A stretch of 64,000 nt of DNA from Psococerastis gibbosa (taxonomy: Eukaryota; Arthropoda; Insecta; Psocodea; Psocidae), in NCBI GenBank assembly GCA_963971405.1, contig OZ020488.1:19115089-19179088 (forward strand), read 5' to 3'. Shown here in pieces: positions 28,301 through 31,300 of this stretch. Numbering within the stretch: position 1 is the first letter of the stretch; every line of letters starts with the position of its first letter. The notes under the pieces are model-generated. The model worked only from the letters and a program-made list of their open reading frames with translations. It was not told the origin of the DNA and searched no databases. Both the position numbers and the translations under genes were made by a program.

Positions 28301-31300
28301 GAAAAAAGAAAACTTATTCCGTATTCCCTTAAAAAATAACCATAATGAGATGGGCGGGTACAGTGCAGCAGGCTTACTATGGCATTTAAAAATATTTTAT
28401 TCTGAGATTAAAAATGTAAACAAAAAAGATTGAGTTATTAAGTTATTCTTTAAACGCCATAGTACGCCTACAGTATTAGAACTGGTTTAATCTAGAATAT
28501 TGTATAATGATGAAACTTAGTAGGCTACAGTAGTCACTACTAAACCGCTACATTTTTCCCATACTGTGTATCGTATCGTCAACGGTCTTATCATATTGCA
28601 AGAGCTGAGCCTATAACACATCAACAACATATTGACCTGCCAATACCGCTTGTACCCTGTTTCTGACACTGACAGCAGGAAATCGCAACGTCTGACAGTG
28701 TGCAGTGTAAATAGCCAATGCGCAATTATTGGGCAATAGGACGGAAGTAATGGAACCAAATGTCTGATTTCAGGAGTTTCACACGTGTCCAAAGTGCTGG
28801 AAGATAAGGGAGAGCTCGTCATAGTTGATGAGGTAAATATTAATGATAGTTTTAGTAAGATATTTAGAAAAAACACCGAGACAACCCAGAGAGGACTGGA
28901 ATTATATTTTCTGGGCTCCATTTGTTTTAAATCAGTTGATTTGGAATGGATTAGTTTCAAAACAACATTTAAATAATTTTAATAATTCTCCGGGAAAGTA
29001 ATACTTTTCAGTTGGTATAGGAGTTTCAGACAAGCGAAGTTGATTTGTTTTGGTTTAAAAATGATCCTTTAAATTGATTAAATTAATAAATAGCCTGCAT
29101 GGGTAATGTGCTATCCAGCGGAACTGAGCGTGATCACTCCATGCAACTAACATCTGCGCATGGCGCTGTCGAGTTACCATGGCAATACCATGAAAACAAA
29201 TAAACTAACGTGGTACAGTGTCTTTGCAATATAGTTAAAAACCTTCGTGTTGTATGAAAGTGGTGTTTAACATTATATTCATAGATGCAGTTTATAACGA
29301 TCAGCTTCTCGTGCAAGTTGGACTTGCAATGTAGAATTCAGCAAGCAAGTAATTAGCTGCGTTTTCGACGAAGTACCGTAAATAGTTATTATCCTGTAAA
29401 CAATGGCGGATGTCAGCGTTCATATTCTAAACGAATATGACCAAGTGATTAGTGCACTTCAAATGCAAATTAATTTGTTCCGGGAAGAACATGACTTTCT
29501 ACGCAAGGAAATATTAAATGTACTGTCGGAAAACGACGAGTTGAAGGGAAAAATAAAATTTGAGTTTAAAAATAAATTACAAAATAATCTGACTGAAAAA
29601 TTTGGGCCAATCGCCCAGTGGGAAATGGTTTCTAATCTCCGAAGGCAGATGGAATTGAGTCTTGGAGAGAGGAAACAACTCAGTGAGATGGTTAGAACCA
29701 GTCAAGATCTTATATTGAAGTTAGAAAATCAACTTCGTGATGCCCGAGTTAATAATTCAAAGGAGATAGAAAAAAACAGATTTGAACACTCAAACTTCCC
29801 ATGGGAATCAAAAGTTGATGAACTACAATTAGAGTTAAAGCTTGAACGTTCTGCGAGGGATGATCAAGAACATAAAAGTCTGAAGATGAAGTCGGAAGTT
29901 GCTAGGTTACATGTGTTACATCAAGACAATGAGACGAAATTAAACGAAGCTGAAGCTAAGCGTAAAGGAGTCGAAGCACAGTTCTATAAATTGGAGCAGG
30001 AAAGCACATTGATTAAAGAAACATTGAAGTGTGTTACGAAATCAAGAGATGCACTTGAGGTGTCGCTATCGGAGAAAGAAAGGCTGGTGCGAAACTTACA
30101 AAAGAGGAACAATGAAGCGAGTTGTAAAGTGGAAGAGGCTGTTGAAGTGGCTGAAAGGGCGGTTACAGAAAGGGATCAAGTAGTTAGCCGCGAAGCCCAT
30201 GCACTAGCAGAAATATCGCGCTTGCAGCAGAGCTTGAATCACGTAATTGAAGAAGCTGCTAGAAGGATGAATGAGGAAGTGAGAAAAACGAAAGAAGTTG
30301 GAAATGAAAAAGTTCTAAAAGTGGAAAAAGAATATGAAAAGTTGGAGAGCGCTTTGAAATTGAAATCGAATGAGCTGGAAAAACTGACCTCGGACTACAA
30401 GAAGTTGGAAAAAATTATTGGGGCAACAGCATTTGAGGAATCCTGTGCTTACGTAGTGGAGATAAAAGCTGCATTGAAATTTACACACGAGAAATTAGAA
30501 GATGCCAAAATTGCACTAGAAAAATATCAACGAGAAAATGAAAGACTGTACAAACACGCAGAAACATTAGAAGAATGTAAACAAAAATGCAGAGAACTCT
30601 CAGTGGAACTCCAGAATCAGATTGGAAGCTGTCAGTGCGTTCGTCTCCGCGAGAAAATAAAAAATTTGAAAGCTACCAAGGACAAGCAAGTAGCGAACTT
30701 GGAGAGACAAATAAAAACACAAATGGCTTTGAACGAGAAGTGGGAGAAAGAAACAGCTAACTTGCTTAATACACTGGAGAGTGCCATGAAAGAGAATGCA
30801 AAACTAAGCCAAAGACTGAAATCCAAAAATAAAATTAAGTATGGAAAAGACAATGATAACGAGTACTTCCATTCTAAAGAAAACTAATATTTTACTCAAG
30901 TACAACACACGTTTATACTTATTACTAATAACTACTAATTATTACTAATAACTTACTAACTATTACTAAGTAACAAATTTTTTAAAATTTATGTAAAAAT
31001 TTCTGAGTGATATACATAATAATAATAGTATCTAATAATAGAAGGCTGAACAGTGAGGTAATAGTTATTCAAAACGTTGTTATAAAAAGACATACAGTAA
31101 ATACCTGTAGACAAAAATCGTATTCTAAAACTGTTCTGTTCCTAGCAATTTTTTCAGTAACTGGTTTTTGAACCCACGAATCTTTGGCTGCGATCGATAT
31201 TCCTTACCTAAGAAGTTCCACTGGCGCCAGACATTTACAAAAAAATAACTACCATATAAAGCTGTGTTATGTCGGGGTATTCGCAACACAAGTCCATTTC

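Follow-up and report, generated by a model that had tools for sequence, protein, structure and literature searches.

Intron 2 of an otoferlin-like ferlin gene of Psococerastis gibbosa contains, on the same strand, an intact and intronless frame of 494 codons, and the best explanation of this locus is a working, single-copy gene for a coiled-coil protein resembling SCLT1, a reading to which we give a probability of about 0.7. SCLT1 (sodium channel and clathrin linker 1) is a protein of distal appendages, also called transition fibres. The window is the whole stretch of DNA that was analyzed (64,000 nt), and the host exons, the intron and the nested frame are placed in it as follows:

19225-19303, + strand: ferlin exon 1, coding part (79 nt; 26 codons plus 1 base), followed by the donor GTGAGT
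28774-28832, + strand: ferlin exon 2 (59 nt), flanked by AG and GTAAAT, placed by splice-bounded candidate scoring
28833-40645, + strand: ferlin intron 2, containing the nested gene, with host exons on either side
29403-30887, + strand: intronless 494-codon frame for a likely SCLT1-like coiled-coil protein, from the ATG at 29403 to the TAA at 30887, with 0 internal stops
40646-40834, + strand: ferlin exon 3 (189 nt), which follows otoferlin residues 47-109 and ends at the donor GTAAGT

A ferlin gene encloses the frame

The window was searched by tblastn with a provisional human otoferlin sequence, which matched plus-strand stretches lying in order from 19225 to 63858, amid many weak chance matches. 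A 59-residue piece encoded at 55948-56124 matches solved human otoferlin (E 2.3e-20), 63263-63421 matches the Pfam family FerB (E 5.7e-24), and the host is read from these similarities as an otoferlin-like ferlin. Candidates for exon 2 were short open stretches running from AG to GT in the right phase; among the 313 scored, the one at 28774-28832 reaches 31, and the best candidate elsewhere reaches 4. Exons 1, 2 and 3 concatenate into a single open frame, and the coding lengths of the first two equal those of the corresponding human otoferlin exons, which we take to be 79 and 59 nt.

Because exon 2 is located at 28774-28832, the 494-codon frame falls within intron 2 on the same strand as ferlin, its start codon 570 nt past the intron-2 donor. 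The entire coding frame lies inside the intron of another gene, with host exons on both sides. The same-strand position in intron 2 that had been proposed in the earlier note is therefore borne out, exons 2 and 3 flanking the frame and exons 1 to 3 joining, and so is its description of the frame as intact, intronless and 494 codons long, whereas its figure of 45 kb for the host holds only as a lower bound, since ferlin runs on past the edge of the window at about otoferlin residue 957. Compared with otoferlin or a misfire-type ferlin, the host is alike in that its stretches are collinear with otoferlin residues 1-957; it differs in that its intron 2 houses the nested gene and that two of its exons, each of 85 nt, are probably alternatives to one another.

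These two successive 85-nt ferlin exons (50884-50968 and 51853-51937) share the same phase, each lies between AG and GT, and both match otoferlin residues 321-348, at 64% and 61% identity, respectively. They are likely to be a mutually exclusive pair. Upstream of ferlin, also on the plus strand, exons of a sodium/hydrogen exchanger occupy 139-11281, with 139-564 matching Pfam Na_H_Exchanger (E 7.1e-12) and the end at 11281 taken from a reading of the open frames.

The frame exceeds chance length

Of the 36 listed stop-to-stop frames that have 100 or more codons and stay inside the 64-kb window, the nested frame is the longest, the second-longest (278 codons) being that of a transposase. Simulated 64-kb windows from first-order Markov models gave longest open runs of 248 codons with intron composition (n = 100) and 281 codons with ORF composition (n = 50). 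The start codon of the nested frame lies in a good animal context (AAACAATGG), and G+C content at codon positions 1, 2 and 3 is 0.50, 0.27 and 0.38, a ranking shared with ten in-frame stretches of ferlin exon (0.51, 0.36 and 0.42). The frame is thus confirmed as genuine and beyond chance length.

Similarity of the predicted protein to SCLT1

The nested frame is predicted to encode a long coiled coil. Only 2 of the 494 residues are proline, and the hydrophobic periodicity of the protein is 31.2 at 3.5 residues and 31.1 at 3.6 residues, against shuffle maxima of 19.9 and 20.6 (n = 300 each). All comparisons with SCLT1 used one human sequence, itself provisional, as the query. In local alignment, residues 8-487 of the protein pair with residues 59-638 of human SCLT1, with 126 identical (26%) and 250 positive among 480 pairs. 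Five nulls of 1000 copies each were run, including shuffles that preserve where hydrophobic and charged residues fall and rearrangements of blocks 28 or 35 residues long. In every null, none of the 1000 copies attained the local score of 254 (null maxima 180-232; z 6.0-9.3) or the end-free score of 241 (z 5.6-8.6). The reversed protein scores 155 in local and 149 in end-free alignment.

Coiled coils attract false likeness to one another, as human SCLT1 itself illustrates when set against five decoys, namely tropomyosin, vimentin, lamin, myosin rod and kinesin stalk (z -0.2 to 2.8, the highest with myosin rod). Against the same five decoys, the nested-frame protein reaches z 0.6-1.6, and -0.4 to 3.1 with the decoys reversed, compared with z 7.2 for SCLT1 (200 shuffles each). 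When the protein is divided into thirds, all three align in order on human SCLT1 (z 3.8, 2.6 and 2.2); of its quarters, three also fall in order (the first at z 5.3, the third at 2.9, the fourth at 3.3), and the second, taken alone, aligns out of order and at chance level (z 0.5).

Pairwise BLAST against human SCLT1 with the low-complexity filter matches residues 8-103 (E 2e-5). Unfiltered, its top match is a non-collinear piece (E 0.007), and the collinear piece reaches only E 0.023. With human SCLT1 as a tblastn query against the 64-kb window, the nested frame is the top match (E 0.001), the next place elsewhere standing at 0.44; the same query against the animal's own 409-Mb genome gives 0 matches at E <= 10, the nested locus included (11 candidates scored). 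Similarity to SCLT1 is collinear across most of the length, a provisional result in view of the provisional query sequence and the weak unfiltered BLAST.

Searched at E <= 10, the nested-frame protein matches no Pfam family and no PDB chain. This counts neither for nor against SCLT1, because human SCLT1 itself matches so poorly: it passes no Pfam model, with a single match below the cut-off, and finds two weak PDB matches (E 0.16 and 0.2). The two proteins have in common a long coiled coil, an EYD block near the start and a W-x-x-ET block near the end. They differ in that the window protein is 194 residues shorter than the human SCLT1 used as query, with internal gaps and without the first ~50 residues, a counterpart of which, or a 5' exon encoding it, was sought in the 64-kb window and not found. 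Their identity is 26%, and the window gene is free of introns, whereas the human SCLT1 gene has many. Homology to SCLT1 is likely, though not proved. The likeness to SCLT1 proposed in the earlier note finds support in a nearly full-length collinear alignment to one human sequence that exceeds shuffles and the five decoys, and is held back by the weak unfiltered BLAST and the empty genome search.

Flanking sequence, expression and proposed role

The sequence on either side of the frame includes candidate signals for expression and an interspersed repeat:

28833-29402, + strand: candidate promoter and 5' UTR space of the nested gene (570 nt, from the intron-2 donor to the start codon)
31065-31307, no strand assigned: copy of an abundant interspersed repeat, beginning 178 nt past the stop codon and stopping short of the first AATAAA; 39 further places listed at 86-90% identity
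31341-31424, + strand: first AATAAA signals past the stop codon (31341, 31404 and 31419)

The first poly(A) signal of the nested gene thus lies past a transposon-like repeat. Weak candidate initiators, TCAGTT strings, occur at 28932 and 29008. An Rfam search of 28000-35000 returned nothing. Tandem-like repeats at 27450-28364 and 34326-34673, with copies 83-97% identical, flank the nested gene. Between them, at 32603-34224, is a Tc1/mariner-type element with inverted terminal stretches of ~228 bp that are 77% alike; it contains a minus-strand transposase frame (33073-33909) with matches to the Sleeping Beauty and Tc3 helix-turn-helix domains. This copy looks broken, since the transposase frame stops before the last block, which reads in another frame.

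The nested gene would most likely be transcribed from a promoter of its own in the 570-nt stretch that separates ferlin exon 2 from the start codon, and its transcript would be polyadenylated at an AATAAA near 31341-31419. Ferlin pre-mRNA may read through the whole nested unit, which would then be spliced out with intron 2. By homology, the protein may act as a scaffold part of transition fibres at ciliary basal bodies, where it would bind a CEP83-like protein and hold CEP164, and its site of action would be the few ciliated cells of the insect, i.e. its sensory neurons and possibly its sperm. For human cells, a published account presents the CEP83-SCLT1 module as the structural backbone of distal appendages (PMC11984956). 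Drosophila basal bodies are described as showing no transition-fibre-like structures by electron microscopy, in a paper that also cites a 2023 Drosophila transition fibers paper (PMC11190437), and we count this description against the transition-fibre role.

Copy number

The animal's own genome (409 Mb in 68 contigs) was searched with the nested-frame protein, and the only match, both at E <= 0.001 and at E <= 10, is the frame itself (19 candidates scored). The gene is accordingly single-copy and without a close paralog, and distant paralogs could escape the search. A multi-exon parent, which the earlier note had proposed, was looked for in the same 409 Mb and none was seen, although a distant parent could escape in the same way; the protein search excludes only a close parent or paralog, because it misses distant relatives, as when human SCLT1 found nothing. 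Scans of viral and prokaryote contigs and of plasmids turned up no relative, the outcome to be expected of an animal gene.

A recent retrocopy was considered and rejected, since the genome holds one copy and no close intron-bearing parent. An origin of the frame from a transposon was also set aside. In a DNA search of the genome, in which the best 40 of 3126 first-look candidates were scored, 39 of the listed matches away from the locus fall over 31065-31307, 1 falls over 32257-32375 and 0 of the 40 fall over the frame, which the protein search finds in one copy.

Alternative explanations

The frame might instead belong to another coiled-coil family, its likeness to SCLT1 being of the general kind that coiled coils share. 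The low identity of 26% to a provisional query, the weakness of unfiltered BLAST, the failure of the second quarter to align in order and the empty genome search with human SCLT1 all lean this way. On the other side, 0 of 1000 class-preserving shuffles or block permutations attained the SCLT1 score in each case, and the five decoys stay at z 0.6-1.6. The absence of any PDB chain or Pfam family at E <= 10 also speaks against it, and we consider this explanation unlikely. That the frame is a functionless relic or a chance opening is scarcely credible, given 494 open codons against at most 281 in simulation, together with the coiled-coil periodicity and the similarity to SCLT1. It had also been asserted that a gene so placed must have its own promoter. 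This is too strict, as a ferlin transcript ending early in intron 2 would be another route: transcripts from the ferlin promoter would keep the start of the intron and end at the poly(A) signals near 31341, such that the choice between splicing and polyadenylation would determine which protein is made. The shared strand, the 570-nt distance from the donor and the downstream poly(A) signals fit such an arrangement, and Drosophila misfire, itself a ferlin, is described as having distinct testis and ovary transcription starts (PMC1853072). Against it, the ferlin start codon and a 47-codon read-on, with its stop at 28976, would precede the frame and make it a downstream cistron, and messages of that layout are as a rule poorly translated; we regard dependence on the ferlin promoter as improbable.

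The preferred reading, a working SCLT1-like gene, is compatible with descent from an old retrogene, in which the ferlin intron would have received a copy of a spliced SCLT1 mRNA, and the original gene with its introns would have disappeared afterwards, so that the copy alone remained. The window frame lacks introns and the human gene has many; in addition, a run of 19 A at 31806-31824 is one of only two runs of at least 18 A or T in the window. This run nevertheless lies 919 nt beyond the stop codon and 64 nt beyond the nearest AATAAA, no target-site duplication was found beside five A runs, and no parent was seen in the 409-Mb genome. The longest common exact word at these runs is 9 nt (at 31422), with 6 nt at 31806, and a common word of at least 9 nt was also found at 26 of 200 random places. 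We regard the old retrogene as a tentative account, less probable than not. Far more speculative is the extended form in which the only SCLT1 of the insect would be an orphan retrogene that has replaced its intron-bearing ancestor and come to rest in a ferlin intron, with ferlin splicing and nested polyadenylation competing and so coupling two proteins of sensory or sperm cells; this we think very unlikely.

Nested genes and the distribution of SCLT1

Nested genes are described as common in animals, the inner gene as a rule being short and without introns (PMC8467205). The same source counts opposite-strand pairs as 220 of 296 in human and 193 of 248 in mouse, which leaves the same strand to 25.7% of the 296 human and 22.2% of the 248 mouse simple pairs. 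As in the same-strand cases described there, the present locus places an internal gene that lacks introns inside a large intron of a long gene with many exons; it differs from them in nothing of kind, the same strand being the minority arrangement. The nesting in the ferlin intron is thus a good, tidy instance of a well-known gene-in-gene arrangement, and its layout lends itself to asking how an internal gene on the same strand keeps from shortening the transcript of its host.

A paper naming Drosophila distal appendage proteins gives CEP89, FBF1 and CEP164, and SCLT1 is absent from that list (PMC9484695); C. elegans is described as without CEP83, SCLT1, CEP89 and CEP164 (PMC11200010). A literature search on SCLT1 with insects returned no title on an insect SCLT1. 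An SCLT1-like gene in an insect is of interest because SCLT1 is not listed for Drosophila and is reported as lacking in C. elegans. If intact, such a gene would help to place the loss of SCLT1 and would let the CEP83-SCLT1 backbone be tested outside vertebrates.

Mitochondrial sequence in the assembly

Contig 68 carries ND2, COX1 and COX2 in the arrangement typical of insects, as read from the matches. On contigs other than 68 there are 42 further COX1-family matches, mostly partial, and these are interpreted as many nuclear copies of mitochondrial DNA.
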